Source: Echinarachnius parma (Eukaryota; Echinodermata; Echinoidea; Clypeasteroida; Echinarachniidae). Taken from it: DNA of 64,000 bases. The notes below the pieces were generated by a model. The model saw nothing but the letters and a program-made list of their open reading frames with translations. It did not search any database and was not told where the DNA came from. The stretch is from contig JBAMJV010003820.1 in NCBI GenBank assembly GCA_037951105.1, forward strand, positions 124,001-188,000, in the 5' to 3' direction. The translations under genes and the position numbers were made by a program. Of this stretch, positions 7,035 to 53,454 are shown piece after piece. Every line of letters begins with the position of its first letter. Within the stretch, counting starts at the first letter, position 1.

Positions 7035-7095
7035 CTTAGCAAGGGTAGGTTGTTGGATTTGGTAATGGCAGACCTGCGACAAAACTGTTTATTAT
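7035..7095 (-). pseudogene. most decayed partial copy of the eya Tyr-rich exon
   Basis: Matches the 3' half of the 7364-7523 exon (TAGCAAGGGTAGGTTGTTGG on the plus strand) with many substitutions, including loss of the Ser/Gly frame and of the GTAAGT donor. It lies about 156 bp from the better copy at 7191. Confidence 0.75.
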
Positions 7096-7190
7096 AGAAT
7101 ACAGACTTGTTTTTTTTGGAGAAAGTCATACTTCGTAAGAAGCTGAGACCCAAGGACATTTAAAACCCCCCAATATATTATTTAATCTCG

Positions 7191-7260
7191 CTTGGCAAAG
7201 GTGCTAGCTGGTAGGTTAATGTGTTTGGTAACGGCGAGCCGGCACTATAACTGTTTGTTA
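7191..7260 (-). pseudogene. partial copy of the eya Tyr-rich exon, donor lost
   Basis: Collinear with the 3' half of the exon, 178 bp away. The minus strand still reads HSITNSYSAGSPLPNTLTYQ then LAPLPSE in the exon's own frame. GACA|GTAAGT has become GAGATTAAAT, removing the donor, and the frame reaches a stop at once. No acceptor was found on its 5' side, so it is unlikely to be a working exon. Confidence 0.85.
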
Positions 7261-7363
7261 TAGAATGAAGACCAAATTTATTTTGGGGAGAGAAAGCTGT
7301 GTGGTGTAAAGAGCTTCAAATCAAAGATACATTTAAAACAACAAATAAATAAATATTACTTAC

Positions 7364-7523
7364 TGTCGCTTGGCAAAGGTGCTAGCTGGTAGGTTGTTGT
7401 GTTCGGTAACGGCGGGCCGGCGCTAAAACTGTTCGACATAGAATAGGGACTGTAGTTTTGTGAAGCGTAGTACTGGTTGAAGCCTGTCTGACTGTATGCC
7501 GTATACGAGCCATAATCTACACC
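7364..7523 (-). CDS. eya: eya exon: conserved Tyr-rich block
   Basis: A 160-nt exon (phase 0 in, phase 1 out), acceptor CAAACCTAG and donor GACA|GTAAGT. It encodes GVDYGSYTAYSQTGFNQYYA, SQNYSPYSMSNSFSAGPPLP and NTTTYQLAPLPSD. The first part is the most conserved piece of the EYA N-terminal half (vertebrate DYPSYPSFGQGQYAQYY), and TTYQL matches vertebrate ATYQL. It is the last exon of the gene in the window; the next must start in phase 1 and would carry the SPSTPIKD linker or the HAD domain. Two decayed copies of its 3' half lie downstream at 7191-7260 and 7035-7095. Confidence 0.94.
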
Positions 7524-7903
7524 CTAGGTTTGGAAAAGATTAAATGAAAATGTTGGTTATAATAAATGTATAAATCAGGAAGAAAAACACAATTCTTCAA
7601 TAATATTTCAAGAAGAAAAACACAATTCTTGAATATTTCAAGTAGAAAATGGTTCTTCAATAATATAAAAAAACACACACAATTCTTCAATAAAACTTCA
7701 AGCAGAAAAAACACAATTCTTCATTTAATTTCTTAACAATTTGAAAATTTAGCTTGACATGTCACAAATAACATCTGAATTTGAAAACAACTAAAGAAAA
7801 ATCCAACAAATAGCAGTTCTAGCTTCTTTTCAGGAATGGTTGATTTTGCTGTAGCCCTAATATTTTCAAGACCAGTCTTAAATAGGTTCAGGATGCAATA
7901 CAT

Positions 7904-8175
7904 CGTCGGTGACATTACGTACCGGCGAATCTTCAAATTTCGGTTTAGATTTTGAGTTTTTGGCATATTTTTGATGTCTATACCCAACTCTATCACATAT
8001 CTGAATTTCAGTCTTCAAAATTCACGATATCATTGAATTTCAGAAATTGATATTCGAAAATAGAGACAAAATTGTGATAGAGTTGGGTATAGACATAAAA
8101 AATATGCCAAAAACTCAAAATCGAATAATCGACCGAAATTTGAAGATTCGCCGGTACGTAATGTCACCGACGACA
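7904..8175. repeat. large inverted repeat with ~98-bp arms
   Basis: The left arm (7904-8001) GTCGGTGACATTACGTACCG ... CCCAACTCTATCACA is repeated in reverse complement at about 8073-8174 (GTGATAGAGTTGGGTATAGA ... TACGTAATGTCACCGAC), with a small insertion in the right arm. The short frames IELGIDIKNMPKTQN on both strands are the same arm read twice. It lies in the 840-bp intron between the 8549-8467 and 7523-7364 exons. Confidence 0.9.
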
Positions 8176-8176
8176 T

Positions 8177-8445
8177 GTAGGCAAGCCTCCACACTACATT
8201 TGCTCTGTACTGGCGCGTTCAGGCAAGTAAAATCATCAATTCCGACATTTGACTTGCCCTTATATAAAATTTACTTGCCCTCTTCTTCTCTCAAGAGATT
8301 TAAACGTATGAAATGTCATTGTTCTCTCAAAATTATTTAGTTGCCCAATCGGGCAAGCAAAACTAGGCAATTTGTTAAATTGTACTTGCCCGACACTAAT
8401 TTTGACTTGCCCCGGGCAAGCGGGCAAGAGCTAGAGTCGAGCCCT
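8177..8445. repeat. dispersed repeat rich in CTTGCCC/GGGCAAG
   Basis: Multiple GGGCAAGT/ACTTGCCC motifs, including TTGCCCAATCGGGCAAGCAA. A related copy in the opposite sense is at 35092-35335; weaker relatives are at about 28248-28450 and 57375-57480. Confidence 0.7.
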
Positions 8446-8466
8446 GATATAGGGTTGAATAATTAC

Positions 8467-8549
8467 CTGATGTGTACTGTTGAAACCCTGTGAGTTGGTG
8501 GTGGTATTGCTGGTCGAGGGATATGTGTAGCCTGCCGTCGTAAACGAAC
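8467..8549 (-). CDS. eya: eya exon: Ser/Thr/Asn-rich SFTTAGYTY segment
   Basis: An 83-nt exon (phase 1 in, phase 0 out), acceptor TTCCCTAG and donor CATCAG|GTAATT. It encodes SFTTAGYTYPSTSNTTTNSQ then GFNSTHQ. This aligns closely with vertebrate EYA1 [20 protein letters not shown] followed by FNSSQQ. The preceding G from the 9210 exon completes Gly. The exon is short and would be missed without using phase and homology. Confidence 0.9.
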
Positions 8550-9209
8550 CTAGGGAAAAAAGAAAAAAAAATATCAAAACAACCCTAACAAAATAATTAT
8601 GCATCATTTTAAGTCAAATGGGTCAGCAATAAAACCAAACCAAATACAAGAACAGATCGAACAAAAATTACAAAGAATGAAAACATGTTTTAAAACACAA
8701 TTTAATTTGGATTTGGTACTAATGACATACAATTGTCAAACACAATGACATTCATAACAAAATATATAAAAATTATGAACAAAATATAATTATGTTGAAA
8801 CATTTACCAAATGTTTGTTGAACCTATTAATTAAAAATGATAACAGTGTCTGATACAGTGCATACAGTATGTTGGCATGTTTTGTTTGTCTGAATGTGTG
8901 TTTGAAAGTATCTTTTCTCCTTTTCTATCATCTCTCCAAAAATAGCAATACTAGTAATTGGGATTAGTTTGAAACCAGGAACCTCTTTAATTAAGGTTAA
9001 AATTCAAACCTGTTCTACCAACTGAGCTAATTTGGATATAAACTGCCTAATGGTTGTACCAATTGAGCTATTTTGCTCTAAACCACTTTAAGGCTTTATA
9101 AACAACTGAGCTACTTTTTGCTCTACATCGCCTAATGCTATATTTCTAATGTTTTGGTTTTTGTTTTTACAGCTAAATTACAATTGAATGGTCAATAGAG
9201 GGCCCATAC

Positions 9210-9338
9210 CTTGCATTCCGTAGTATGGACTCTGCGCGGGTTGCGGACTCCCCGTAAAACTCGAGGAGCCGTAAGGACTAAGGTACGTTCCCTGGCCCTG
9301 TAAGGACGCAGAGTCGGTGGATTTTAACGACTTTGCGC
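9210..9338 (-). CDS. eya: eya exon: Tyr/Pro-rich SPQPAQSPYYGMQG segment
   Basis: A 129-nt exon (phase 1 in, phase 1 out), acceptor CTCCACTCAG and donor CAAG|GTATGG. It encodes AKSLKSTDSASLQGQGTYLS then PYGSSSFTGSPQPAQSPYYG and MQ. The end is the counterpart of vertebrate FSTPQPGQAPYSYQMQG. Position, order and both phases agree with its neighbours at 13209 and 8549. Confidence 0.92.
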
Positions 9339-9995
9339 CTGAGTGGAGATATAATGGAAACGCGTTAAAAAACAGGTGCAATGCAATCACATCATTATGG
9401 AATTCAATTTCAAAGTGATCGATAGAAATTGTTGAAAAATGCTTACTGAAGCTAACATGAATGTGAAAGATGCAGATGAGTTATTTCAGATTGAAAATCA
9501 TGCTATTTTAATTGTTCTGCTTTAACATTTTTTTCGTTTAACGTAGAGGATTTAGCCATTAGATCGCAGTGGATTATTAGAAATGCATGTTCTACCAAAT
9601 TCAAATTGTCTACAACAAGTCATTAATAAGTGAGTGACAGAAAAGGAGAAAAGCTGCTAAATGCAATTGAAAGATGATTGTGCATTAGTGATGTACTGCT
9701 GAATGAGAGATTATTTTTAATAGTGCTTCTTTAATTTTACCCCAAAAATGATCATTTGAAGTAATTGTTAGGAAATGAGAAAGGATGCAAATTCATTAAG
9801 AATGATTGTGCCTGAGAAAAGGTGCCCTTTTAATAATACAATTTTCTTTACGAAGATAGTATGAAGAGGAAAATGGAATAAAGAGAGAATATGCTAAATG
9901 CATTCTTCAGGTGATTGTGCATGAGCAGTGTAGCTAGTAAAATTACGCCCTCTAGAGAAGAAAACATAATGATATACTCCTTGAAATCATCACAT

Positions 9996-10237
9996 ATGTG
10001 ACCGGCTATAGCAAAACCCTGCACTTGTTTTGAAGAAATGGGCATTTTAAGTTCTCATAATGTTTGTAAAAGACGTATGATTGTGAAATCGAAACAATCA
10101 TATCTTCGCCAATTATTGACCAATTTGTTAGAACAAAGCATCAAATGAAAGCTTGTGATGCAGCCTTTCTAATGGTATGAACATATACATTTTGATTTTT
10201 ACAGACAAGTGCAGGGTTTTGCTATAGCCGGTCACAT
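9996..10237. mobile_element. MITE-like element with ~33-bp terminal inverted repeats
   Basis: The ends read ATGTGACCGGCTATAGCAAA followed by ACCCTGCACTTGT and, at the other end, its exact reverse complement. The ~240-bp interior has no coding capacity. It lies within an older degenerate tandem array marked by GATGATTGTGCA motifs near 9674, 10301 and 10378. Confidence 0.8.
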
Positions 10238-10416
10238 TTAACAGATTTGTTAACTTTAAGTGATTTGAAGGAAATAAGAATAAATGCTAGCTGAATCTAA
10301 GATGATTGTGCAAAAGTAATATAGCAAAGTTGAATTCTGAAATGAACATTCTTGTGATAATTACATTATGATAAAAGATGATTGTGCACGAGCGATGCAG
10401 CATTCAAAATATGGCT

Positions 10417-10563
10417 CTTCTGTCAAATTTCACCAGGATATAACTTAGCCAAGTACAATGTTGTTCTAAATTAATTAAATTGTTTATTTTCATCTATTTT
10501 TCTAGATGAAAATGGACTACATTGTACTTGGCTAAAATATATGCTGGTGAAATTTGACAGAAG
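10417..10563. repeat. 147-bp palindromic element
   Basis: The left arm CTTCTGTCAAATTTCACCAG ... TTAGCCAAGTACAATGT and the right arm ACATTGTACTTGGCTAA ... CTGGTGAAATTTGACAGAAG are reverse complements, with an inner ATTTTCATCTA/TAGATGAAAAT stem. Confidence 0.85.
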
Positions 10564-10988
10564 TGACACATACATGTACATACCTTGTAAGACTGAAATT
10601 ACAATGCATTTAAACAGACAGTGCACAAACATCCACACAAAACAAACACAAACATACACATACACACAAACGCACACAAACAGGCACACACTTGAACATT
10701 TTTTTTTAAAGGGTGCTTTCCAAATAATACAAAACTGAACAAAAAAAATATGCATAAGAAGACAAGTGAAGTCTTTTGTTTTTCATTGAACTCTATGCAA
10801 ACTTATGGGGTCTATTTTTGGCATGGGGGGGGGGGGGGGGGGCTAATTTGCGATTTGCTCTGAGCCCCCATGTATTTTTGTCACTGCCAACAGAGGCGAA
10901 AACGGGACGTTGAAGAAGTGCATGCCAGTATCCATACCACAGGGAGCACCCTGTATTTGCATTGCTCTTGTGCAGTTGTCCTTTTGAT

Positions 10989-11110
10989 CACTTCGATCAC
11001 ACCACAATTCAAGAGTCAGTAATCATTTACTTTGACAGAGTGGAGTCACTTCGATCACACCACAATTCAAGAGTCAGTAATCATTTACTTCGACAGAGTG
11101 GAGTCACTTC
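10989..11110. repeat. 58-bp tandem repeat, about two units
   Basis: CACTTCGATCACACCACAAT followed by TCAAGAGTCAGTAATCATTT and ACTTTGACAGAGTGGAGT is repeated almost identically; a third unit starts and then diverges. Confidence 0.85.
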
Positions 11111-13009
11111 GATCAGACCACGAGCTAAAGACTTCTAAATGCATCAGACAGTATCTACATGTATCTAGTCCATGGAACCACAACTAGTTGGAACTTCAAC
11201 CGAGGAGTATGGTCAATATATACACAGAGACTTTTCCAGAGGCATTTTACAGTGACCATATTAGTCTTTCTTGCTCACTGCCATCACACCGCAAGTGCCA
11301 AATTTATAATAATTTAAAAATGAATAAAGAAAGAATGTACTGTTCAACAGAGTATTCTACTGAACTGGCTTTTATAAATGACAAACTTCACATCTTATGT
11401 TGATTAGGTACAAAATGATAAAGAGCATAACTTTTAATCTGATGCAACTTTGGCAACAAAAAGAAAAGTGGTCTAAATAATATGAAAGTAAAGTACAGAT
11501 TTTCTGATAATTGTATCTGGGAGTGCCAATTTTGTAAAAGAAATGAAAATATTCAATAAATGTACTTTAACATAATTCACCAGGACAAAATGATCGGTGA
11601 AACTGTTTTTGCCACAACAAAACATCCATTTGAATACATCATACTAAAACTGCTAACTACTATTCAATTCAGTTTATTGGTATCTTTAAAAGGCACAATA
11701 TTATACTATACAATCAAATGTATCAAGGGAACCACAATATAATGAAGCCAATGGCTCGGGAAACTATGAAGAAGCATAAAAGCACGAAGCCGGCTCCTAT
11801 AAAGCTAAAACCCTAGCTCTCCTCTAGCGCCAGATAAAATGGACGGAGGAAATGGGTTTGAATGGACTCTTGGAGATGTATCAGTTACGAAAATGAGAAT
11901 CCACTGGCCGTCTCATCTTTCCCGCTCATTTCCTCTTGTTCTCCATCTATCTTTCTCATTTCCTTTCCTTTTTGCCATTTTTCTTTCTACTCTCCCTTTC
12001 CCCAATTAATTTCTTTTTACATCTATATTTCATATCATTATTAGATTTTCTTTTTATATCGCTTATTTCTTTTCTTGTGACATTTGTGTAAATGTCCCTT
12101 ACTTTTGCTTTTCAATCCTTTCTTTGAGCCTTTTCCCTCTCCAACCCAAAATAAAATCTTCCATCTTAATTTTATCAATTTCTCCTCACTATTCTCAATT
12201 TTAAATGATTTTTTGGCCACATTTCCGTCTTTCCCTCCCATACCACTAATGAGACATATTCTTTATAATAAAACAAGGAGTCTGTAATTTTTCATCATCT
12301 TTTCTGACTTCACTCCTCAATTCTTTCCATGTCTCTTTTTCAATTTGCACCAATTTTTTTTTTTTATTTCTTAGAGAGTATCAATTTCACAAGAATTAAG
12401 GGACCCCATTACAACTTATCTTGAGTATACTCTCTTTTATATAGCTCTGCCAGTCTGTATGGCATATCAGCAAAAAGCTACTAAGTGCTGATAGGGTTAC
12501 AACTTCCAAGAGTGAATATCAAATGCATACATTTATGAGTGCGGTTTTAGTGTTTTTAGTGTGTGTGTTCGTGTGAGGCTGTTTTGAAGACATGTTATTG
12601 TAATTCATGTGTACCCATAGTAGAAAGAAACTTGTGTGTTTTCTTCTAGACACCTCCATTATACGAATAATTACAAGTAAGACCATCACTATTTACAAGA
12701 CATAAACACCAAAATCGTCATGAAACACTTACCACAACCCTGACTTATCATAACATACACTACCTACCAGAAAATTACACCCAATAAAAGACTATTGCAC
12801 CCAATGAAAGACCATTACACTCAACAGAAGAAAAAAAACATCACTGACCAAGCATCATTTACATAAAACACAAAACATACTACAAACTACAAGAAGCACA
12901 ATACACTGGACACAAAAACATAACATCAAGCACAAGAATGAATACACGTTTCATAAGAACATTACACCATTCAAAAGATCATTACACCTATCACAAGACA
13001 ATTACACCA

Positions 13010-13081
13010 AACCAAACCAAACACAAGTTGTAACACTCACCATAAGCCTGCCTGACCAGCCCAAATGGTGTTTGACCAGAC
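13010..13081 (-). pseudogene. partial copy of eya YPHIL exon: 3' end plus donor
   Basis: Lies about 171 bp downstream (minus sense) of the matching part of the real exon. It still reads SGQTPFGLVRQAYG and keeps the GTGAGT donor and the following intron sequence (TGTTACAACTTGTGTTTGG). No acceptor was found. It could act as a decoy or alternative donor. Confidence 0.85.
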
Positions 13082-13208
13082 ATTGTACATGTCATTAGAC
13101 AATAACACCAAACCAAACAAGAGTTGAAACATTACATCATTCAAAAGAAGATCATAACACCTACCACAAGACAATAACACCGAACCAAACACAAGTTGTT
13201 ACACTCAC

Positions 13209-13372
13209 CATAAGCCTGCCCGACCAGCCCATATGGTGTTTGACCCGACTGCGCCGTGTACGGGTAACTGGAGGCTGTCTGAGAGCCGAACGTCCCCTGT
13301 GATTGGGAGACGACCGGCTGGAATTGACTCCCTTGCGCCGTCGGTGTTGGCAAGATGTGAGGATAGGCTTGA
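13209..13372 (-). CDS. eya: eya exon: YPHILPTP / Gln-Tyr-rich segment
   Basis: A 164-nt exon (phase 2 in, phase 1 out), acceptor TTGCTACAG and donor TTATG|GTGAGT. It encodes QAYPHILPTPTAQGSQFQPV, then SQSQGTFGSQTASSYPYTAQ and SGQTPYGLVGQAYG. YPHILPTP is a hallmark of EYA proteins (vertebrate PYPHILPTPSSQ), and the repeated Tyr-Gln-Ser pattern is typical of the EYA transactivation region. The exon is GC-richer than its introns. Partial copies carrying its donor (13010-13081) and its acceptor (about 13462-13531) lie in the flanking introns. Confidence 0.93.
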
Positions 13373-13461
13373 CTGTAGCAAGAGAAAAGTACAGGAATAG
13401 TCACAAGGGTAAAATGATAATTATAGTCATTATAATGATAAAATCATCATGTTCTTTGAGT

Positions 13462-13531
13462 CTTGAAGTTGGTCTGCCATCTTTCTTGGCAAGATGTGAA
13501 GATAGGCTTGACTGTAGCAAGAGAAAGGTGT
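13462..13531 (-). pseudogene. partial copy of eya YPHIL exon: acceptor plus 5' end
   Basis: About 140 bp upstream (minus sense) of the real exon start. It contains CTCTTGCTACAG then TCAAGCCTATCTTCACATCT and diverges after TTGCCAA. The acceptor is intact. A more decayed third copy may exist near 13700-13720. Confidence 0.8.
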
Positions 13532-15568: not shown

Positions 15569-15622
15569 TCTTTAAGCTTTCATTCTTAATTTTATTTTTA
15601 TTTTTAAAATAAAAATTCAGAG

Positions 15623-17820: not shown

Positions 17821-17901
17821 GGTTAACCCATTCCCTTCGAGTTAGTGAAATCCCCATAGACTTTGTATACAACCCACCCGGTTCCTGTTGTCAAGGGGTT
17901 T
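17821..17901 (+). repeat. copy of ~80-bp dispersed element (family R1)
   Basis: TTAACCCATTCCCTTCGAG ... AATCCCCATAGACTTTGTAT ... CACCCGGTTCCTGTTGTC ... AAGGGGTTT. Near-complete member with opposed TTAACCC/GGGGTT ends. Confidence 0.8.
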
Positions 17902-18451
17902 AGACAACTGTTTACAATGTCAATTTATGTGATAAAGCTAAACAACGTTATGTCAAACTGTTGAAATTTGTTTTAACATTTCAGCTTACTTATAACATAG
18001 TAAGATAAAGCCAATATACACATAGACAAAAGAAAACAAAAACAAGACTTTGACAGAAGAGTATATACAAACAAATTATACTGACATCAATGTTGTAATA
18101 ATTAGCCTAATGCCTGGTTTTGTCTGTCATTTTTCTTTTGACAAGAATATACAAACTGGCTTTAGTTACCATCATTTTCCTTGTTTTTGTTCTTTACGCA
18201 ATCAAGTAACATAACAGAAGAAGGTACAACTTCTGTCAAAAATTATTTTCAATAGTCAATTGGACAAAAAATGAATACGAATAGATTTGTCATCGTCAAA
18301 ACTTACTACAGGTAGTTATTGCGTCGCGATGGTGTCATATATATTTTCCTGATATAATTAGCAAACAAAAATCGACATAAATTATTAAGTACACATCATG
18401 ATAAGAATTTTGATGATTTTTGTTTCTCAAAATAGATTATTTACTACTCAC

Positions 18452-19656: not shown

Positions 19657-19732
19657 CTATAATACTGAGAAGGAAACTCTGATTTTGGCTGACGAAGGTT
19701 CATGTCCAATGAACTTTGCCCCGAACTCGATC
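19657..19732 (-). CDS. eya: eya exon: SSSGQSSLDMN segment
   Basis: A 76-nt exon (phase 1 in, phase 2 out), acceptor CTATGCAG and donor TATAG|GTAAGA. The first Gly codon is completed across the junction (FPG|SSSGQ), and it encodes SSSGQSSLDMNLRQPKSEFP then SQYY. It occupies the place of vertebrate [20 protein letters not shown], just before the conserved YPHIL motif. It is too short for an ordinary open-reading-frame search and was found by searching for a phase-1/phase-2 exon between its neighbours. Its final AG joins T of the next exon as Ser. A second KSE tripeptide occurs here. Confidence 0.85.
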
Positions 19733-21479: not shown

Positions 21480-21563
21480 CTGGGAAGCTTTCTAGCAAGG
21501 AAGCGCCATAGCTAAAATCAGACGCACATGGGGTTACACTACTACTACTGGGTTCACTCTTGA
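21480..21563 (-). CDS. eya: eya exon: IKSEPSSSS segment
   Basis: An 84-nt exon (phase 1 in, phase 1 out), acceptor ATCCATAG and donor CCCAG|GTGAGC. It encodes KSEPSSSSVTPCASDFSYGA then SLLESFPG, corresponding to vertebrate EYA [20 protein letters not shown]. The KSEP core fits the ψKxE SUMOylation consensus when preceded by the junction Ile (IKSE); this is a motif match only. The pyrimidine tract before the acceptor is unusual: after the short ACGCTCCATCC stretch it is a pure C run belonging to a three-unit minisatellite (about 21579-21845). Confidence 0.9.
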
Positions 21564-21578
21564 CTATGGATGGAGCGT

Positions 21579-21845
21579 GGGGGGGGGGGGGGGGGGAGTG
21601 AAGCAGGGTGTTTATGAGTGAAGAGACATATTCAGGTGGGGGAGGGGGGGGGGGGGACGACACAGGATATGTAATAGAGCATGGGGGTGGGGAGAAGTGA
21701 AGCAGGGTGTTTATGAGTGAAGAGACATATTCCGGTGGGGGAGGGGGGGACGACGCAGGAGATGTATAGAGCATGGGGGTGGGGAGAAGTGAAGCAGGGT
21801 GTTTATGAGTGAAGAGACATATTCCGGTGGGGAAGGGGGACATGG
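21579..21845. repeat. ~95-bp minisatellite abutting an eya acceptor
   Basis: Three units of GTGAAGCAGGGTGTTTATGA/GTGAAGAGACATATTC followed by GGTGGGGGAGGGGG, with pure G runs at 21579-21596 and about 21645. The proline-rich frame on the minus strand is an artefact of C-rich codons continuing into the real exon. Confidence 0.9.
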
Positions 21846-24537
21846 GGGAATGAGTGATGGGAAATATATATATATTTTTTTTGATGGAACATAAACATAA
21901 AGAAAAGTGAGAGAGAGAGAGAGAAGCAAAACAATAAGAAATAAGTAATCAATCACTCAGAAGCACACTCAAAAGCAGCAAATCAAAAACATTAGTGTAA
22001 AAAAAAACAATACAAGAAATATTCAATCTAAAACAGCAGAATAATACTTTAAAGAAGAAGATTAAACTCTAAATTCAAACTAGGTAAGACCTATCCTGTG
22101 ATATATATTACCAAAACATTGCTGCCAACAATTAAACAAAACATGTGAAAAACTCAGCAACAAATCCCAGATTTAAAAAACATATGATCTATCTCCCACC
22201 TTTTTCTGCAAGGCAGTGATAACAAAATTCAAATTAAAACTGGAAATAACCCAGCCCATCCTTAAATGAAAATATTGTTAAAAGAGTGACAAAGAACCAA
22301 TAAAAAAAATCCCATTCCCCTTTCAATTGCAATTTATAAACTGTCTTTGTTTGTTGAGCAAACATAGAGTGCTTTAGAATACAAACACAGCTAAAGCTTG
22401 GAGGCACTTCGGCAAAAATCAATGTCAACATAATGTTGATGGTATGTCAACATTAGGAATATATATATATACACACCCACACATATATATCGTTTATTTC
22501 CAACGCAATTAACTTCCACCTCATATTTTTTGCGAGGTTGGCTTTTCTACTAAAGTAAAGTGGTTATATTTGCTTTCTAAAGCGATGATATTGAAGTTTT
22601 TATGAGGAATAGAAAGGAAAATAGATATGAGAGTTTGACGTTTATGATGGCTTGCGCCCTGCACTAATAGAGCGATGTGTGTGCTCTGTTAGGAACTGCA
22701 AACATTAAACTTAGGAGTGAAATTCTAATTGGAAATATGCCCAAAATGGCAATTCTTCACTTTCTTATGATGGTGTAGTAATAAATTGTCTCACGTACGC
22801 CTCCTTTATTTTGTCTAATAAATGTCCCTTTAAAATAAAAATGTGTATTTTTTCAGTTGGCTGCATTATGTTTTCCAATATTTAGTTAGTGACTACAATG
22901 TTCATGTGGTGATAATGTTTCACATGGGCATTTAATAAGAAATATGATCTTTTAGAAACAATCATCGAGCAGAAAGGCTTGATCAAAAGTAATATAAAAA
23001 AGTATCTTTTTAAATTTGGAGTAATACATACAAATAATATGGACAGTCATATTTTAAAAGGGGTGTGTACTACAGACAGTGAGCAAAGAAGAAATTACTT
23101 CAATGTTTGTTTTCATGAAAATCTTGTCATTTCAGTCTTTCAGAAAGGCGAGTAATATGTTGTCTATAATATGCTATGATGCCTTTATCTGTGTCTTTCT
23201 ACACCCTCAAATAATCCCTACAGTGCACAACAGTTTAACACAAGAGTTGTGTTTATGCATTAATGAAACTGCATTAAAATGATTGTATGTGCAAAAAAGT
23301 ATTGCAGAAAATCCATAAAACTGCACGCACAATTTGGGACAAAAAAGGTTGCATCACCTGATGGTGTTAAGTGCATTAAAATGGATTGGATGCCCCAAAC
23401 CGTGCCAGAAATCCTAAAAACTGCATAAAAATCAACCAATTCAATTGTCTCATCTACACATATGGCGTAAACAGCTAGGGTATGGTAAAAAAGCAAATTA
23501 ATGTGCATTAGCCGCGCCACATAATCATGGTGGCGCATATCATAATGACGCCTTTTGCGCCTCTTTCTCCACCTCTTTCTCCGCCTTTTGGTCAATGTTT
23601 GGAAGCGTTTTCAGAGGAAGGGTAAATATTGGTCTTCCATCGTCCGCTTCAAACGTCCACTTTCACTCCACGTTTTCCCTTCCATGTCTCGGCCTTCGTC
23701 TTCGCCCTCCTTTTTTCTTCCGCCAATAATTTTCTTCCTTTTTGGGGCCAATAATTTTGTCTTCGTTTTTGTGAACATAATTACAAATTTTCCTCTTTCT
23801 CTCTCCTTTTCCTTATTTTTTTCTTTGGCTTTCTCTTTTCCTCTTCCTTTCTAAATTTATCTCCCTCTTATACATAAATAATGAAATATACATTAAATTA
23901 CCTACTATAATTTGCAATCCCCATAGAGTTAATACAGGGTCTACCAGGTAAATATATGACTATAATAGTGAACATTAAGTTTAATGTTATATGTTGTATA
24001 ATGTTATGACACATTCAGAAAATACCTTCAAAATCTTATTTGTAATATTTTATGCACACCAAATCCTTCTTGAAAACAGAAATACCAATTTGCTATAATA
24101 TGCATTATCCTTAGACCCCAGTCAGAGTATTTCGGCGGGCAATGCCCATGAACAGTTTAATGCAGAATTGAATCACCATCTCTGGTAAAGAGAAGTCAAT
24201 GGTTGTAAACCACTAAACCACAGCCACTTTCTAGTATTGACAAAGCTGTCCTGATACTTGAAGAGGTATCGCTATAGAGCAAAGAATCAATGTTCAAAAA
24301 GTCAACACCTAAATCTACAAAGCCCAAGAATACACCTTGACAAATCTTGTAAGACAACTTTTGTTTTTGTAATCACTATTTACTAGCAAAGTCATATGGT
24401 TTTATTAAAAGTGACCTTCAAAAGATGGTTCGATACATTTCATACACTTTTCCTTTTTAATGTAATGAAGAAGTGATATTCAAATAGCCTAGCTAATGCA
24501 CTCTCTTAAATGCCCACTTTTATAGAACAGCCACATC

Positions 24538-24914
24538 TTAAAGGGATCTAGTAACTTTGTTGACATGTGCAAAAAGTGATGAATTGTTGATGCAATGTAT
24601 ATTGTTGTTATCTCATATGTCCACAGGGTATTGTGTGAAAATTTCAAGTCAAATGGACATTGTATGGCCAAGTAATGAGCAAAAATGCAAAGTGATATTC
24701 AGTAACTCACTGCACTCACTTTGTACACAGAAGAAAAACTCGCCCGGAGTTTTATACTTCAATCATACATATCTTTGTAACGAAAGGGAAATTTGAAAAA
24801 CCGAAACCTGTCCTGTGATTTTATTGTTAATACGAATACAACAAGGTATAAGGGAACCGCTAGAATGATAATTTTATTTTGAGGATTTGGACAATGTTAC
24901 TAAGTCCCTTTAAA
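24538..24914 (-). mobile_element. ~380-bp MITE, copy 1 (inverted relative to copies 2 and 3)
   Basis: Ends TTAAAGGGATCTAGTAACTT and CAATGTTACTAAGTCCCTTT. The interior includes TTGTTGACATGTGCAAAAAG and TGGCCAAGTAATGAGCAAAA. No coding capacity. Confidence 0.9.
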
Positions 24915-25309
24915 GAGTAGATTGTTTGTATTCATTCTACTTAAACCAATATTGATTGTACTCGTTACTTGAGGAAGTACAGGAAGACAAGACTTGTTCA
25001 ACTAGACTCACAAATGCCTTCTCTAAAAATGCATTCTTGGGCTTTAACTGCTAGCCTCATCTTAAAAATTGGGAAATTATGATTTTGAATCAATATTCTG
25101 TACTCATACTTGCTATTTAAAGCTGATTAAAAAGATCAGCAAAAGAAGCTTTGTTCAAATAGCCTTGCAAACGCCTTCTCTTAAATGTCTTCTGGGCTTA
25201 TACTAACCACATCTTTGGATGCCCAAGACTACCTTGATGGGCGAGCGATGAATGATGCCCACTCTCATCGAGGTATTTGGGGTTTACAGCGCTACTCAAA
25301 CAGTAGTGG

Positions 25310-25885: not shown

Positions 25886-26023
25886 GCTGTAAAACATTGA
25901 AAATAATAAGAAAATGTCCAATACTTTTAATCATATCTTCACAAATATACTTTGAAATGCAATGAATAAGCCAGGTATCATTTTAAAGACAATATTTTGT
26001 GTTACATGATGGTTCCTTTATCC

Positions 26024-26409
26024 TTAAAGGGACTTAGTAACATTGTCCAAATCCTCAAAATAATTTTTTCATTCTAGCGGTTCCCTCATACCTTGTTGTA
26101 TTCGTATTAACAATACAATCATGGGACAGGTTTCGGTTTTTCAAATTTCCCTTTCCTTACAAAGATATGTACAATCGAAGTATTCAGATAAGAAAAACTC
26201 CGGGCGAGTTTTTCTTCTGTGTACAAAGTGAGTGCAGTGAGTTATTGAATATCACTTTGCATTTTCGCTCATTACTTGGCCATGCAATGTCCATTTGACT
26301 TGAAATTTTCACACAATACCCTGTGGACATATGACATAACAATAATATACATTGCATCAACCATTTATTACTTTTTGCACATGTCAACAAAGTTACTAGA
26401 TCCCTTTAA
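26024..26409 (+). mobile_element. ~380-bp MITE, copy 2
   Basis: Reverse orientation of copy 1 with the same ends (TTAAAGGGACTTAGTAACAT ... AAGTTACTAGATCCCTTTAA). Copies 1 and 2 form an inverted pair 1.1 kb apart. Confidence 0.9.
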
Positions 26410-26859
26410 CATTACCAGAATGGTGTTGAACATTTCCTCCCATATGGTCCCTTCACATTGTCATGGTGTGCATGTGTGTGTGTGTGGGAGGGGGGGGGGG
26501 GGGGGGGGGGGAGGGAAGGGGGGAGAGTTCCAACATTTCCAAACTCTCACCTGGGTTACCTGGTGGGGGTTAAGGACAGGAAAATATTTGTTAGACAGGT
26601 GAGATAAAACTGCATAGCTTTCAACTTTTAATCACACATTTCCAAACAGCAAAAGTTCACAACTATACCACCAAGATGCAATAGCTCCCCACTCTCCTCC
26701 CAACAAAACACTTAAAGACTGTCATGCATGGTAATGTAGAGGGCACTGTTCGTAAATGCTACCCTGCAGTTTGCCATTTTGAACTAGGCTAGTTTCCATA
26801 CGCTGCATAACACTGGGCCAGCATTGATTTATGAATACCAACCACATTTAAGTACGAGA

Positions 26860-27180: not shown

Positions 27181-29180
27181 AGCAATTATAAACCAGAGAG
27201 TGGCCCTGCTGGTTATAGAAACTCTCAGGAATTTGAACCGCTTTTGTCAGATCTGCACTTTTTTGTGTTCCCGCAAGGGGGGAAGAGGTTTTGAAGCATT
27301 GCAGCTGCACACGGGATCGCCACTTTTGATGTGTGACAAGTTTATCCAATTTATTTTACTTTATAGTTTTTAATCTCTCTAGATAGTCCCTGCCAACAGA
27401 ACATTTCTCTCAAACTAAAATTTTCAACATGTATATCTTCAACCCATTCAGCACTATTCTCCAAAATAGTCCTGCTCTTTATCTGTTCTCATTCTCCATT
27501 AACCCCTTGCCTATGGCTATATAGATGTTAACCTGGTGGGTCCTGCATTTCTCTATGGGAATTGCGAATTCTAGTAGGGAACCGGTTAAATGAGCCCTTC
27601 CTCTTCAGTTACCCCCACTCCCCCACCGGCCTTCCCTCATTAGCTGTTATTTTCACCAAATTTCCCCCCCCCCCCCCCGCTTGGTGGACTATGTATCTAT
27701 GGGTCTATGGGTATTCCAGAATCTGGAAGGGATTCTGTTAACCCGTTCCCTTCGAGATTCTCAAATTCCCATAGACTTTGTACATAGCACACCTGGTTCC
27801 CGTAAGTAACAGGTTAAATGAGCCCTTCTATTGAGTTTCCCCACTCCCCCACCCTTCCCTCATCAGCTCGTTATTTTTCACCTTGTTTTCTCCCAGTCTG
27901 CTTGGTGTTTTAAGCCTGCCCTTGGAGCTCCATGTAACAACAAGATGGGTGTGATGTTAACCCCGCTTTGTGTTTAGATGGGGATGGGCGATGTACCCCA
28001 CCGCAAAGGGAACGATCCTAGAATCCTCTTTGATGTGGCATTCTCTCTGCGAAAAAGGTAAAGGATTGTTTTCTTTTCCTAAACTCTTCTTTGTCCACAC
28101 CTTTTTGTTAATGTTTTATATTTGTCTTTCTCTGTTCCCTCCTTAATATTGATTTTTTTTTCTTCTTCTTTCTAGCGTCCAGAAGCTAAATATATATCAG
28201 TAATCAAGTATTTTGGGGACCAGTCCTAATACACTGCTCAAAAGTAGCATAGGTCCACTGGCCCCCAGGGCCACTAAAAATTAGCTCCGGGCCACCAAAT
28301 TTCATTGATCCTAAATTCTACTGGCCCTTTCGGGCAATCAAATTTAACAGAAATTGTTATGTTTTTCTTTGTATGGGCTACCAGATTTAGGTTACGGGCT
28401 ATTCAAAGTTGAACAATCTTGTTTTTACTTGCCCGACTGGGCACCAAGGCAAAAAGGTTAATTTCTAGCATTGCCTAGGCTAATAGGTTTAAAGATTGTC
28501 AAGCGTGGGGATGCTACGCAACGGATCTCCATTTTGAACTAGGCTAAGTTTGTTTGCAATGCCTAATACTGAGCCATTGTGTAGTACGCACCGTGCAACA
28601 GGGCGTTCGCAAGGTGGCACCACGCATCTGTGTTATATAATAATAATAATACATAATAATACATAATATTTATATAGCGCTTCGTACTGATGTTTCTAAG
28701 CACATTACAAACGAATCCAAACTACCTTTAAAACTGAAATTCTGAATGAATATCATGTGGTCTGAAATGTATGAAAATATTATAGGTTGCTAGACATCAT
28801 TTTCACCTAATTTTCCCTGTCTGCTTGCATGGTTAAGCCAGCCCTCAGAGAGAGATCTAACAACAAGCCGGGTGTGATCTTAACCCCGCTTTGTGTTTAG
28901 ATGGGGACAGGGCACTACCTAGCCACTTCAAACGGTTCGGCTGCAAAGTAAATGCTCCAAGGAATGGTTCGTCAATGATACAGAAATCTAAACGAAAGGT
29001 GAAAGAATGAATTATTTTGTCTCTTTCTTTCTTTTTCTATTTAGGCGGGGGTGGCCCCAGACTCGATTCATACTTGCGGCAAAAAGAGAAAAGCAACAAA
29101 ATGGGTTTGATACAGTTACCATCATTCTCTAGGCTGAAAGAATTTTCTTTTCCAGGCCCATTTTCTATTTTTCCCTTTTC

Positions 29181-29562
29181 CTTTGGACTTAGTAACATTG
29201 TCCAAATCCTCAAAATCCAGTTGGAGTTCTAGCGGTTCCCTCATACCTTGTTATATTCGTATTAACAATAAAAGCATGGGACAGGTTTTGGTTTTTCAAA
29301 TTTCCATTTCGTTAAAAAGATATTTACGACTGAAGTGTTCAGATGTTAAATTATCCACTGGACCATGAAAACTGTGTACAAAGTGAATGCAATAAGTTAG
29401 TGAATATCACTTTGCATTTTTGCTCATTACTCGGCCATATAACTTCCATTTAACTTGAAATTTTCACACAACACCCAGTGGACATATCAGATAACAATAT
29501 ACATTGTAACAACCACTCATCATTATTTTGAACATGTCAACAAAGTTACTAGATCCCTTTAA
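29181..29562 (+). mobile_element. ~380-bp MITE, copy 3
   Basis: Same orientation as copy 2 but more diverged. The GACTTAGTAACATTGTCCAA end lacks the outer TTAAAGG; the other end (AAAGTTACTAGATCCCTTTA) is intact. Confidence 0.85.
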
Positions 29563-30440: not shown

Positions 30441-31004
30441 GATTAGGAATGTGGAATCCAAACAAGAGGCGCAGCAGACATAACATACCTCTCTAGACTC
30501 TAACCTTTTGTATGTAGATCGTTTCAACAGTAGAATATTACTGGAGGGTTTAACCCTCCTGTGCCCCAAATCAGAAGATTAAATACTAAGATAAGCTTGC
30601 ATGGTGTCTGCTTGTTTCATATACATGTATGTATTAAAGCCCTACCTCTCTGATCATCAAGGTGTCCGAATGTTTCCTAATGCACGAACAGATTGGATCA
30701 AGACATGCAATGAATGCTGTTTGCTACTAGATTTCAAAATTCCCATATATATTTAATACAGGACCCACCAGGTTCCCATAGGCAACAGGTTTATAATCCA
30801 AATATATTCACGGATAAATATAACTAGTAACATATCTATATACAGATTTGTGTCAAGGTGGTTTATATACATGTACAAGAATTGTTGAGGCATCTTTGAT
30901 GAAAGTAATATGGAGTGGCAGCAAGAAATGAGGATCTAACAACAACAAAAAAAAATCACCATTATTATTCCATTGTCTATGACTATAGCTAGTATGGAAG
31001 AGGT

Positions 31005-31345
31005 TAACCCATTGCCTACAGGAACCTGGTGGGCCCTGTATTAACTCTGTGGGGATTGCACAATCTAGTTGGGAACAGGTTAATCCATTGACTACAGGAA
31101 CCTGGTGGGTCCTGTATTAACTCTATGGGGATTGCAACATCTAGTTGGGAACAGGTTAACCCAGTGCCTACAGGAACCTGGTGGGCCCTGTATTAACTCT
31201 ATGGGGACTGCAACATCTAGTTGGGAACAGGTTAACCCATTGACTACGGGAACCTGGTGGGTCCTGTACTAACACTATAGGGACTGCAACATCTAGTAGG
31301 GAACAGGTTAATCCATTGACTATGGGAAGCAGTAGGACCATGTTA
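31005..31345 (-). repeat. tandem array of R1 element, four to five ~78-bp units
   Basis: Head-to-tail units of GTTAACCCATTGCCTACAGG/AACCTGGTGGGCCCTGTATT/AACTCTATGGGGATTGCA then ATCTAGTTGGGAACAG. The unit is the same element that is dispersed singly elsewhere in the window. Confidence 0.9.
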
Positions 31346-31814
31346 TAACTCTACAGGATTTACAGATCCTAGGAATGATGCACTGGATGAATCCGTATCA
31401 AATATCAATCATTTCAGAATCTCTTTTCTACATCTCCATCAATTTTAACTCATATATATGTGCCCTCACAAATTAAACAGAACATTTATATCGTATCTGG
31501 TTTCTCTGAATATAACAAAAGAGTTGCAATTTATCTTTTACAATCAGAGAAATTGCAGAAGACCTTTTGTCTCAAGTTCATTTTTCATGAGTTGATATAA
31601 CTGATGGACCAACCAAAGTACTGCACATGTTTCATTAACTTCTACATTTCTATAAACGGGATGGACAGATGGACGACCCAAAACAAAATGCCTCTGGCCA
31701 CTTTATCGGCATACAAATATTCTAGAAGCTAAGATGAAGATCTTGGCTTGTAAGGGAGATCTCCGAAATGTTCATGAAACAATGAAAGATATACTGTATA
31801 GATATATCACTTTT

Positions 31815-32290
31815 ATATGTTTGTAAGAAATGATGAGAGACATACCAGGAAGATGTGTGTTCTACTTTTTACATTTCACTTTTCCATATTTGCAAGTAAT
31901 ATCGAAGGAACATTTATAGAAAGATGCAGGTATCGATTTCTCCAACATGTACTTTTTTTCCTTCAAATTGCAAGAAATTATAAAAGAAACACTAGCCAGA
32001 TGTGCATTTCACTTTTTACATTTACTTTTCTATATATACAAGAAATTATGAAAGAACATTTATAGAAAGATGCAGGTAACGATTTCTCCATGCATTTTTT
32101 TCATTTTGCAAGTAATTATGAACGGAACACTAGAAAGACGTGTGTTTCACTTTCACAATAACCTTTATAGATTTGCAATGTATTGTGAAAGAACACTAGA
32201 AACATGCTTGTATTATTTTCTCCAATCGCCTCTTTTTAATTTGCAAGAAACTATGAAAGAAACCCTAAAAAAGGCTGTGTGTTTCACTTT
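31815..32290. repeat. tandem array of ~70-75 bp units, about six
   Basis: Each unit has GAAATTATGAAAGAACA, TAGAAAGATG(C/T)(G/A), TTTCTCCA or TTTCACTTT, and TTTGCAAG. Open frames here follow the repeat period and are not taken as genes. Confidence 0.75.
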
Positions 32291-32519
32291 CTTTATCAAC
32301 TCATCTGTATGGTACTTCTTTGGGGAGGGCATGTTCCGCTATTGTTTTCCAGAAAAATTTTCATTACGGAAAAATTGTGATAGCCGCTAGCATTGCAAGA
32401 TGGGAATGGGAAATTATGAAACTGAGAAGGGGGGTAAAAGGAAAGGAACCTTGGGGGGGGGGGGGGGGGGGGTAGCCCAGGGGGGCTGTATTTCCTGCCA
32501 TTAGCACATGATACCCAAC

Positions 32520-32660
32520 ACTGTTACTTCTTCGGGGGTCTCAGCCTGATTAGGTGTCCGTTAATACCGCGCCCGACACGGCCGCTTTTCCTGCGCCGTT
32601 ACCGGGCACCGTCCGAGATTTCCTGATCATGTCGCTGCCAATTTGAAACATGCAAATCAA
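32520..32660. promoter_or_regulatory. candidate non-coding regulatory island
   Basis: A CpG-richer, non-repetitive block (TACCGCGCCCGACACGGCCG then CTTTTCCTGCGCCGTTACCG) in AT-rich intron. It includes a CTGATTAGG homeodomain-like motif and GTTAATA. No coding frame fits. The regulatory call is inference. Confidence 0.3.
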
Positions 32661-33339
32661 CTGAAAAAAGTGGAGAATGAAAAATCTGCACTTATGCTCG
32701 CTCGGATACTTCCTAAAAGTATCTTGCCCTCCAAATCAACACATGCCTATAAGAACATTGTTTCAAGCAAGATTACAGTGTCTGAATCCCGTTATAAGTG
32801 TATTGTGGAACACGTTTTGTCACACATTTGTTGTTGTTTTCAAATGTACATTGCAAAGTTATCAATAAAGAGGCATTGTTTGAACACTGATTCAAACATT
32901 CATGTACAAAAGTTCCTCTGCAAATAAAAGACAAACAACACTATCTATCTACCTTATGCAGATAAATAAGTGTGAGAATGCGGTAACATTAAGGAAAGGA
33001 AAATACGAAGAAAAGAGGTATTTGAGAGAAGAGAAAACAATGAATGTAAATTAAGATCTGAACTAGTATTGAAAACAAGAAATATAAAATAAAGTAAGGC
33101 GGATGGAGTAATGAACAAAATGTGAGGTTGATGGTAAACCGCTTGCAAATGATGCAGAAATAACAAACGTGATTAATACATTATTTTAAAACATTTCAGT
33201 TGTATTTTCTTCCCAGGACCCATACATGACCTCATGTCCAACACATAAACAGGCCATAAAAGGGTGAAGTGCATGGCAAAAGGTCCATAAAACTAACCTC
33301 AAAACATATCAATATCTCAAACCAACAACTACAGAAAAA

Positions 33340-33600
33340 GCTGTAAGTCTATTAGAAGGCGCTAAATAAAGCTCCCAGGTTGCGGTCCCGGGAAAGGCGC
33401 TAATGAGAACAGGGCTATCACGCTGGACCATAATTCTCGGCGCCCGTAACGGGCAGGCGGGGAAATGAGAACAATTTCTGGCAATGTTCTGCATGAGTGG
33501 CTAGGAGGAACAGCTAGGCGACGAACTGGGGACGTTTCTTGTTACTCCACGCGCACTTGACACTGAATTTCCCCCCACGCACAGACTCAAGGTTTTTGAT
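33340..33600. promoter_or_regulatory. candidate non-coding regulatory island
   Basis: A non-repetitive block of balanced composition with paired GGCGCTAAATAAAG and GGCGCTAATGAGAA motifs and TTGCGGTCCCGGGAAAGGCG. The frames present have no recognisable family. Confidence 0.3.
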
Positions 33601-34044
33601 GGGTGCCATTGTACGGTAGGGGGGGAAGTCTCTTCCACCGCATGTCTGAACTTATTGGGGTGTGAATATACTGAATGTTGCCTTATTTCTATAGTTGCTT
33701 GTTGAAAGATGTTCTAAGCGGACAATTATGGGTGTGGGGTTTGGGTAAGGAGGGTAGAGCTATATAGCAGAGCATTCATTAAGACAATAATAATAATAGC
33801 GGTTCTTTATATAGCGCTATTCCCATGAGGATCATAGCGCTTCACACTATTATTATTAGTTACCCCAGTCAACCTGTTCCCCAGGTTGCCTGAGAATCTT
33901 GGTGAAATTGCATCTTAATTACACCAAGAAAATACATGATGACTTGATAAAATTGGAATGATTAATTGCAATTCAAATTTGTATCCCTTAACAAGAGTTA
34001 GACCTAGAAGAAATCAGCTCAGAGTATTTTGCTCCACTCTTTCT

Positions 34045-34127
34045 TAACCCCTTGCCTACGGGAACCGAGTGGGCTATGTACAAAGTCTATGGGAACTTCA
34101 GAATCTTGAAGGGAACAGGTAAATGTG
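34045..34127 (-). repeat. copy of ~80-bp dispersed element (family R1)
   Basis: TTAACCCCTTGCCTACGGGA/ACCGAGTGGGCTATGTACAA/AGTCTATGGGAA ... TTGAAGGGAACAGGTAAA; an almost intact member in reverse orientation. Confidence 0.8.
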
Positions 34128-34814
34128 TAAATATTGCATAAGGAACTGACGCCTTGAAAAACACTGAGGATATCGTGTACTGCTGTTTTAGATGGAGAAT
34201 ATGCGTAAATACCACTTTTTTATGAGGAAACTGTGCAACCATAGCTCAATTATAACCAATTTCCCTTACCCCTTTCCATCAATCGTCACATTAGTTATAC
34301 CGGTAGTTTGTCTAATGGAAATCATCCTAGGATTATCATGCCACCTTTTTCAAATGCTTGTACAGTTTATGCCACAGGTTGAGAAAGAGAAGGGCAGTAT
34401 GTCGCTCCTTATACTACAGAGATAACCATGTTTAAAGTTTGGGAAAATTATCAATTATCATTATGTACGAATTTGGCTTGACATACATGTAGAGCAGGCT
34501 CTGACCTATAATGCATATTAAACTGGTCTAGGGCATGACAAGAGCTTGATATAAGGGGGAACATTTATCAAAATATATCTTTTTCCTACATAAATTATAG
34601 TGGTTAGCAAAACAAAATGCAAGTTTTTAAGCAGTAACACTGCTACTAATTGAATATTCAGATATTCATGAGTAGCAGCACTCATTTAATATTCAATTTT
34701 CTAAACAGTGGTTATACATTTTTCTCTACAAAAAAGTTATTAATGAATTTAGTATTTTGCATATTTAATGAGCATTGCTACCTCATGAATATATGAATAT
34801 TCATGAAAAAAAAT

Positions 34815-34853
<39 letters not shown>

Positions 34854-36839
34854 TTTTTTTTATTTATTTTGAATTTTTTTATAGAAAGTTGGGGGTGCGT
34901 TTTATACACGTGTGCGTCTTATACACGGAGTTTTACGGTATGTCTCGATGGGTCAGTTTAATGCATGGTTGTATGCATCCATTGTATGCATTTAGGATTG
35001 AATCAAGTAACAATGAGGCTCTACAATTATTTTGGCTTGAGCACTCAGAGGGTTAAATAATACTCATCGGTTCCATAATTATACAAATGCTAGGTCTCCA
35101 CACCAGTACTTGCCCGGGGCAAGTACAAATTGGTGTCGGGCAAGTAAAATGTCATTAATTGTCTAGTATGCTTGCCCAATCGGGCAACTTTAATTATTGT
35201 TCAACTTAGAGAGAACAATGTAATTTCATATGTGTAAATCTCATCTACGAGTAAGAGGGCAAGTACATTTTGTATCAGGGCAAGTAAAATCTGAAAATTG
35301 ATGCTCTTACTTGTCCAAATGGGCCAGTACAGAAACACAGATAGTGTCTTGGATCATGTGCATTGGAAAGTCTGCATATTGAGCATCATGAGTTGGGATT
35401 TTTTTTTGGCAAACCCCCCCCCCCCGCAAAGCTAGCTAGCCCGAGTAATCATCGTTTTTGTTGAGAGATTAGCAGCAAGTTTTCCTCCTCGGTGGGATCA
35501 AAGTTGTCAACTAATTACCTAGTTCTTACAACAGATGTAGCACAAATAATTCAACACATCCACCCCTTTTACGATGAATTCTCATTTTAAGAAATTAAGT
35601 GGCTTTACACTTAAACCATTAACCTATTCCGGACTGGTCCCCTAAAATACTTGGGCAAGGATCTATATAATATGGAGATTGCATGTTATTCAGTAATCCA
35701 GCCTTGAATGGATTAATTAAGACAATTTGATTATGGTGCAACGCAACATTTTCCATAGTCCGTAATCAAGTAGTCTTGACATAATTTTCTAACATAAATA
35801 TAATTTATGCTGATGTAACATACAATTAACCAAATGTTAAATGAAGACAATTGATTTTTGTACAACATGCATTTTCCATGGACCCTAGTTTATAGATTAT
35901 CTAGATCAGTTCTTCATGGGTCAATTTTATTTTCAAGAAGAAAAAAACGTCTATATAAACCCAATTGTTACTTCTGACAAATCCTACCAGAAAGTTTGTG
36001 ATTTAGGGGCGCTAAGGAATTGTCTCCCTTATTCATTGAGAGGTTTTAACGAAAGGAAGAGGGGGACTGCAGTTTTATCCCTTTCAATCTCCACTGGCTA
36101 TCCGACATAAGAGAATTGGCGCTTGGGAAAATTACTGCAGATGATTCTGATGAAAGGTGAAAGCATTAAAGGCAAATACAACTCAAGATCTAAGGAGACG
36201 GAATCTGTACACCGTAACCATATCGGTTTTTAGTCTATTGTTAATAACACAAATTTGTACTAATTCACAAGAAAACCCTGCCTAAAGGGAGGCACTTGTG
36301 ACAAAAATATTTTGTGTTAATTGTTATCGTAGTAGCCATACTACCCATAAACTAAAGTAATATAGCTTAGCTGCAAGCATTCTCTCCAGTACAGTGACCA
36401 TTTCACCTGTAGTGCAGGTGATTCTATTTGTAGTAATTTTAAAATCGTTCAGCAGTTGCTGCTCACCTGTGGACAAAACTGCTGGACACTTGAGACTATC
36501 CACATGTTACCAAGACTCCCAGTGGATTAACCCCATGCCAACAGGAACCTAGTGGGCTATGTACAAAGTCTATGGGGATTTCACAATCTCGAGAAGTACT
36601 GGTAAGGTAGTGATTCAACAAATATGTTTAGCGTTCCAGACTTCAGACGTCGTATGTAAGATGCAAGCTACATGGACATGGTGTTGCAAGATTGGTAGAG
36701 TGTACACTTTCCACTCCTGGTTTGAAGTCACTCTATAAACATCATCTTTCCACATGTTTATACAAAGATGTGAGCATTGTAGATAAGTAGATGAAATTAA
36801 AGGAACCCTGAAAGACCTCTATTTAAAAGTACATGAGCA

Positions 36840-37106
36840 GCAGGAAAATGTATAGCAACATTGAAAAATGAATAGATGATGATATATATAGGAACATCCA
36901 AACAAAGAAAAGGACATAGAGGAGTAAGGAACGAGAACATTGATTGAACTAACTGTCTGTTCCGTTTAAAGTCACTATAAAGCAGTTGTTGCTTTACGTA
37001 ATAACTCGCAAGAACATGGACAGATGATGAAAGGTAAAGCAACATTCAAACAAAGAAAAGGACATAAAAGACGTTAAGACAAATGGGAGGAGAACATTGA
37101 ACTTAC
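36840..37106 (-). repeat. ~155-bp tandem duplication covering the 3' edge of an eya exon
   Basis: Plus-strand AACAAAGAAAAGGACATA ... GAGAACATTGA ... ACTGTCTGTTCCGTTT(G/A)AA ... AGCAGTTGTTGCT occurs once with the real exon edge and once at 36880-36995. The distal copy (36951-36995) has donor GTTAGT in place of GTAAGT. Confidence 0.85.
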
Positions 37107-37231
37107 TGTCTGTTCCGTTTGAAGTCACTGAGCAGTTGTTGCTATCCGGGGAGTTGGCATGCTGGGGCGAGCTCCCGTTTGCGTTCGACACTTGGCTGTG
37201 CGGACTAGACAGCTGCTGAATTTCTAGAGAC
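37107..37231 (-). CDS. eya: eya exon: N-terminal Ser/Asn-rich segment
   Basis: A 125-nt exon (phase 2 in, phase 1 out) with acceptor TGCTTGTAG and donor GACA|GTAAGT. It encodes SLEIQQLSSPHSQVSNANG, then a Ser/Pro/Asn-rich stretch ending TSNGTD. This aligns with the EYA N-terminus (vertebrate SMEMQDLASPH...NGTE). The last base, A, joins TC of the next exon to make Ile in NGTDIKSEP, matching the vertebrate NGTEVKTEP junction. The reading frame stays open into the intron side (MSMSICSACR), so this could in principle be a first exon, but the pyrimidine-rich TGTAG border and the EYA gene plan favour an internal exon. Partial copies of it lie on both sides (36951-36995, 37381-37440, 37572-37624, 37691-37756). 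Confidence 0.88.
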
Positions 37232-37380
37232 CTACAAGCAGAACATATAGACATAGACACAAAAGGTTAAAATCTGGTTTAAGATAGTAACATTTTGGTT
37301 AAAAATAGACATTTTGTAGAATACATTAATTAATTATTGAAAAGGTTTCCTAGTTTAAGAAGATTTTAATGTGTTCTTGT

Positions 37381-37440
37381 TGCATTCGACACTTGGCTGT
37401 GCGGACAAGACAGCTGCTGAATTTATAGAGACCTACGGCA
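37381..37440 (-). pseudogene. partial copy of eya N-terminal exon (acceptor side)
   Basis: 203 bp upstream (minus sense) of the exon. It has acceptor TCTGCCGTAG followed by GTCTCTATAAATTCAGCAGC; the CTAGAA to CTATAA change creates an in-frame stop. The flanking intron sequence (AAACGGTTAAAATCTGG) is duplicated too. Confidence 0.88.
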
Positions 37441-37571
37441 GAAGAAATAGACATATACACAAACGGTTAAAATCTGGTTAAAAATAGACATTTTGTAGAA
37501 TACATTCATTAATTAGTGGCAAGCAATTATTGGTAAAATGTTTTACATCTAGTTCGAAAAAAGATTTTACA

Positions 37572-37756
37572 GTGAGCTCCCATTTCTGTTTGATACTTGG
37601 CTGTGCAGACTTTACAGCTGCTGACATTTTGTAGAATACATTCATTCATTATTGAAGAGGTTTTACATCTAGTTTGAAAACAAAATTGTGATGAGCTCCC
37701 ATTTCTGTTTGTCACTTGGCTGTGCAGACTTTACAGCTGCTGAATTTCTAGAGACA
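37572..37756 (-). pseudogene. two further partial copies of the eya N-terminal exon
   Basis: Copies at 37572-37624 and 37691-37756, about 118 bp apart, both with GAGCTCCCATTTCTGTTTG and ACTTGGCTGTGCAGACTTTA/CAGCTGCTGA (plus strand). They share substitutions with each other, so they arose from one another after the first duplication. Neither keeps an acceptor. Confidence 0.85.
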
Positions 37757-53433: not shown

Positions 53434-53454
53434 AAAGCAATTCAGATTCGGAAA

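Follow-up and report, generated by a model that had tools for sequence, protein, structure and literature searches.

Exon-border copies in the introns of an echinoid eya gene as probable leftovers of short local duplications

Why should the introns of a gene carry copies of the edges of its own exons? The question is raised by eya in a stretch of 64,000 nucleotides from the echinoid Echinarachnius parma (GenBank assembly GCA_037951105.1, contig JBAMJV010003820.1, positions 124,001 to 188,000), here called the window, where partial copies of several exon borders lie on the intron side of the exons that they resemble. Judging from the sequence, we consider it likely that these copies are what remains of short direct duplications, a common feature of this DNA, with the outer copies decaying inside the intron.

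Exon borders and reading frame place eya on the minus strand, a point absent from the original prediction that drew attention to the locus. Seven exons bounded by AG and GT, which we label A, X, B, C, D, E and F (Table 1), join into a single open frame of 273 residues. Local alignment of this product with an N-terminal stretch of human EYA1 scored 394, well over the values for 2000 shuffles of the product (mean 94, maximum 145), and the N-terminal EYA sequence is found in collinear exons. On this alignment, the gene in the window is eya, represented by its N-terminal part. A query for the phosphatase (Eya) domain had no convincing match in the window, so the gene presumably runs on past base 1, where its C-terminal phosphatase part would lie.

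We compared 80 base pairs (bp) around each of the 14 exon borders with 1 kilobase (kb) of sequence on the intron side, using 300 shuffles and two scorings. Local copies that span the border were found at 5 of the 14: the donor and acceptor of exon A, the donor and acceptor of exon C, and the donor of exon F. Each of the five exceeded all 300 shuffles under both scorings. Both borders are copied in exon C (13209) and in exon A (37107), which the original prediction had not mentioned. Neighbouring copies lie 119-204 bp apart, in line with the 118-203 bp first proposed.

Four of the seven exons had been predicted to carry border copies. Three of them, at 7364, 13209 and 37107, stand up to the shuffles, but the fourth, exon B at 19657, falls to background level. 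Its match, at a lag of 204, gave P values of 0.014 and 0.002 under the two scorings (5000 shuffles, uncorrected for 14 borders). Among 2000 repeat-free positions of the window, however, 6.4% and 4.4% scored at least as high on one side, where the match need not span the centre of the control position, so that 0.6 to 0.9 matches of this grade would be expected by chance over 14 borders. We rejected the exon B copy as background for this reason. At the acceptor of exon X, a significant short match lies inside a G-run and does not span the border. The tract before this acceptor (21566-21600) is itself a C-run on the minus strand and abuts a G-rich array, the unit of which resembles the tract. No significant match was found within 1 kb of the intron side at the other seven borders (X donor, B donor, both borders of D, both of E, and F acceptor).

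What has become of the copies? Eight were aligned with their exons, though they do not make eight independent cases, since A acceptor copies 2 and 3 have changes in common. All are partial, several contain stops or have lost splice sites, and there is no complete second exon among them. The border is spanned in local alignment by six of the eight, namely the nearer F unit (F1), the C donor and C acceptor copies, the A donor copy, and A acceptor copies 1 and 3. The farther F unit (F2), in which the donor GT has become AT, needs a gapped global alignment to reach the border, and A acceptor copy 2 falls short of it. The GT or AG is intact in four of the six border-spanning copies (C donor, C acceptor, A donor and A acceptor 1), the A donor copy reading GTTAGT where the real donor is GTAAGT; the splice dinucleotide is lost in F1 and A acceptor 3. 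The four intact copies are putative decoy splice sites, and to this extent the decoys of the original prediction can be recognized in the sequence. Its suggestion that the copies are raw material for exons could hold in principle, although an exon lengthened to reach any of the four intact decoys runs into a stop codon.

The border copies differ from their exons at about 5-28% of positions, in addition to insertions and deletions. By codon position, exon and copy differ at 12 of 142 first, 16 of 138 second and 22 of 140 third positions (chi-square P 0.17). Each exonic difference taken singly, 19 are synonymous, 30 nonsynonymous and 1 creates a stop. The synonymous share of 38% compares with 23-28% for random changes (P 0.011 or 0.075 under different transition weights), a mild excess of the kind expected when an exon under constraint is paired with a copy free to change. 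The copies look like neutrally decaying DNA next to such an exon.

Local repeats occur at many places in the window. Its self-alignment at lags of 15-600 bp (score at least 40) returned 74 pairs covering 9,674 of 64,000 bases (15.1%), and zero pairs in five shuffles that kept dinucleotides within 500-bp blocks. There are 32 repeat clusters; the best pair of each has a lag in the range 62-277 bp (median 143.5) and is 70.5 to 95.7% identical. Best lags in the five border clusters are 139-201 bp, like those of other arrays in the window, which bears out the predicted agreement with the unit sizes of those arrays. After masking of low complexity, pairs at most 600 bp apart comprised 73 direct and 7 inverted ones, and 4 of the 7 inverted pairs match one dispersed element to one array. 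In 20 of the 32 clusters the copies stand head to tail or nearly so, the best match reaching at least 0.7 of the lag. The exon F array is head to tail: its match is 1.34 times the lag, and 7267-7350 is homologous to 7100-7180 (P 0.001). At score 40, all eight pairs that overlap exons are local and direct, and a search within the window found no distant or inverted copies of exon edges. Direct orientation together with this lack of distant copies points to local duplication as the source of the exon-edge copies, rather than a mobile element.

A simple sequence of events would account for these patterns. Short direct duplications (lags 62-277 bp) would build up at many sites in this DNA, and the duplicated stretch would sometimes take in an exon border. 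As long as the spliceosome used the border still attached to the exon body, the old protein would be made and the gene would be unharmed, so that the duplication event itself would be harmless. The outer copy, now intron, would lose its reading frame and eventually its splice site as it decayed, and repeated events would leave a fringe of decaying border copies. From the anatomy of the locus, we infer that the inner sites are the ones used in splicing, the decoys staying silent. The idea that the copies are by-products of local duplication, with one copy of each border kept, was already part of the original prediction, and it agrees with the direct orientation, the array-like lags, and the stops, lost sites and many nonsynonymous changes found here.

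Several observations weigh against this account. A constrained exon predicts lower divergence in the exon part of the alignments, yet pooled divergence is alike in the exon part (50/420) and the intron part (34/277); lower exon divergence is clear only in the A donor copy (2/37 exon against 15/85 intron). Weak constraint on some of the copies would also produce the mild excess of synonymous changes, and the changes shared between aligned copies reduce the number of independent cases. Many clusters are not clean head-to-tail copies, the best match falling below 0.7 of the lag in 12 of 32. The C acceptor copy is identical to its exon border at 42 of 44 bases, and the spacer at 13391-13485 is not homologous to the stretch after the copy (P 0.72). 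The C donor spacer shows little or no homology either (P 0.44, or 0.035 when compared with the sequence preceding the copy), and the same is true of the 19-bp A donor spacer (P 1.0). The mismatch at the C acceptor could be accounted for by a spaced short duplication, by sequence inserted later between the copies, or by selection acting on the copy. Duplication of a whole exon with later loss of its middle was rejected by reasoning, as the order of acceptor copy, exon and donor copy misfits a single event.

Selection is one alternative. Some copies, chiefly those of this exon, may be kept as alternative or decoy splice sites that tune eya output through stop-containing transcripts; this would suit a C donor copy identical over 18 bases at the donor, a C acceptor copy with tract and AG intact beside an unalignable spacer, and the synonymous over-representation in the pooled copies. 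We nevertheless find it improbable, given that 31 of the 50 exonic differences are nonsynonymous or stops, that F1 and A acceptor copy 3 are without splice dinucleotides and that A acceptor copy 1 has an early stop; youth alone may explain the high identity. Still more remote is an origin from a dispersed mobile or satellite element that overlaps the exons, or from assembly artefacts. A dispersed element of about 80 bp is in fact present in the window, and a 76-bp tandem array (30989-31357) is related to it, but at score 40 no distant or inverted match to the exon edges turned up within the window, and divergence at the level seen in the border copies, with insertions and deletions, is not what haplotype duplication would normally give.

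A different alternative accepts local duplication and adds that exon borders are favoured sites for it beyond array density, for instance because of junctions between GC-rich exon and AT-rich intron or of transcription-linked breaks. All tests of such an excess were post hoc, at a locus picked for this very feature. Random placement of the 32 clusters gave 1.39 expected on borders against the 5 observed (P 0.011, before ascertainment), and placement limited to 7000-38000 gave 1.42 expected against 5 of 16 (P 0.010). Of the 821 exonic bases, 255 fall in local repeats, compared with 3603 of the 29047 intronic bases. Clusters round one exon, however, may lack independence. When the exons as a set were rotated through the window, the result at score 40 was 5 borders against 1.94 expected (P 0.058) and 3 exons against 1.38 (P 0.146). 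The corresponding P values were 0.051 for borders and 0.123 for exons at score 60, and 0.099 (4 borders) and 0.071 (3 exons) at score 80; random exon placement at score 40 gave 0.071 and 0.145. In a toy simulation, moreover, a duplicate with a partly frozen part stayed detectable 1.14 to 1.35 times longer. In aggregate, an excess of border copies over array density is suggestive but unproven, and the word "repeatedly" in the original prediction can be taken no further than this as a claim of border preference. We regard favoured borders as doubtful, and retain the decay of common local duplications as the likely explanation.

Table 1. Exons of eya in the window, copies of their borders, and the array beside exon X.
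Feature	Position	Strand	Remarks
Exon A	37107..37231	-	highest-coordinate exon of seven; TTGTAG before, GTAAGT after; frame and EYA1 match
Exon X	21480..21563	-	exon of joined frame
Exon B	19657..19732	-	claimed border copy within background
Exon C	13209..13372	-	exon of joined frame
Exon D	9210..9338	-	without significant border copies
Exon E	8467..8549	-	without significant border copies
Exon F	7364..7523	-	exon of joined frame
F donor-edge copies, two more units	7044..7266	-	lags 166-178 and 344
C donor-border copy	12958..13081	-	lag 168-170; donor after 13041 same as real one over 18 bases
C acceptor-border copy	13486..13529	-	lag 139; 42/44 bases identical; CAG retained before 13511
A donor-border copy	36865..36993	-	lag 148-153; donor GTTAGT after 36954
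A acceptor-border copy 1	37380..37518	-	lag 201; AG retained before 37432; in-frame TAA
A edge copy 2	37574..37629	-	lag 405; falls short of border in local alignment
A acceptor-border copy 3	37693..37774	-	lag 524; border AG lost
Tandem array by exon X	21584..21839	-	units ~92-99 bp; ends ~20 bp from acceptor

Further searches concerned the gene product and the window at large. Pfam gave no family for the 273 residues up to an E-value of 1, and neither Rfam at gathering scores nor a tRNA scan gave a hit in the whole window. A plus-strand reading of 37050-37800 was rejected, as it matched no Pfam family and eya sits on the minus strand. Protein relatives were sought with six peptide patterns; none was confirmed among the 5 matches from viral_contigs or the 51 from genome_contigs, a negative that says little since both collections are mainly viral or prokaryote DNA and some patterns cross exon joints.

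Other repeats are scattered through the window. The dispersed element of about 80 bp occurs in both orientations, at 34042-34124, 1963-2040, 17823-17904, 27684-27732 and 27738-27817, with further copies at 30717-30791, 36527-36605, 45932-46011 and 53355-53434; the tandem array related to it has 4.3 copies of its unit. An element of 380-390 bp is present three times (24535-24916, 26021-26412 and 29185-29562), the second copy (92% identical) and the third (83%) lying in the opposite orientation to the first. A 15-bp motif around CATTTGGTCTACACC forms degenerate arrays at 5789-6339 and 4424-4627, where higher-order units measure about 30 and 89 bp.

How do the eya copies compare with known systems? 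In the potato RdRp gene, a tandem genomic duplication over an intron-exon boundary is reported to have produced a new intron (PMC4974935). The likeness to eya lies in a duplicated segment that crosses one intron-exon border and includes a tract, a 3' splice site and a putative branch site. It differs in that the eya copies decay inside an old intron, whereas the potato duplication gave a new one; the seven eya exons give an intact frame without any new intron. A study cited in PMC9013439 reports duplicated exons for about 10% of animal genes. PMC9013439 itself puts exonic bases with a homologue of at least 80% identity at about 2% in human, 0.08% in fly, 0.06% in worm and almost 15% in human untranslated-region exons. 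For eya the figure is 130 of 821 coding bases, in a single chosen gene and by a method other than that of PMC9013439. As in the tandem exon duplication described in that paper, exon-like sequence lies in an intron near its parent exon; unlike the duplicated exons there, which are treated as splicing alternatives, the eya copies are exon edges only, and none amounts to a whole second exon with an open frame and a splice site at each end, as mutually exclusive exons require. Surplus splice sites can also come from local duplication of exon-internal AGGT (via PMC4974935 and PMC2809761). The eya locus has surplus sites too, in contrast as copies of existing borders. The eya border copies are a good example of an already known kind.

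It seems unlikely to us that short direct duplication in this genome is frequent enough to give a large share of exon borders intronic shadows, some of them with intact splice sites, together with a standing decoy load on splicing fidelity and borders that are duplicated above the rate of other DNA. At eya itself, the locus would serve as a worked case of harmless exon-border duplication, in which the border attached to the exon body is retained while the outer copy turns into intron. Were the same to hold genome-wide, such a genome would make it possible to date the birth and loss of splice sites and to measure what decoy sites cost.

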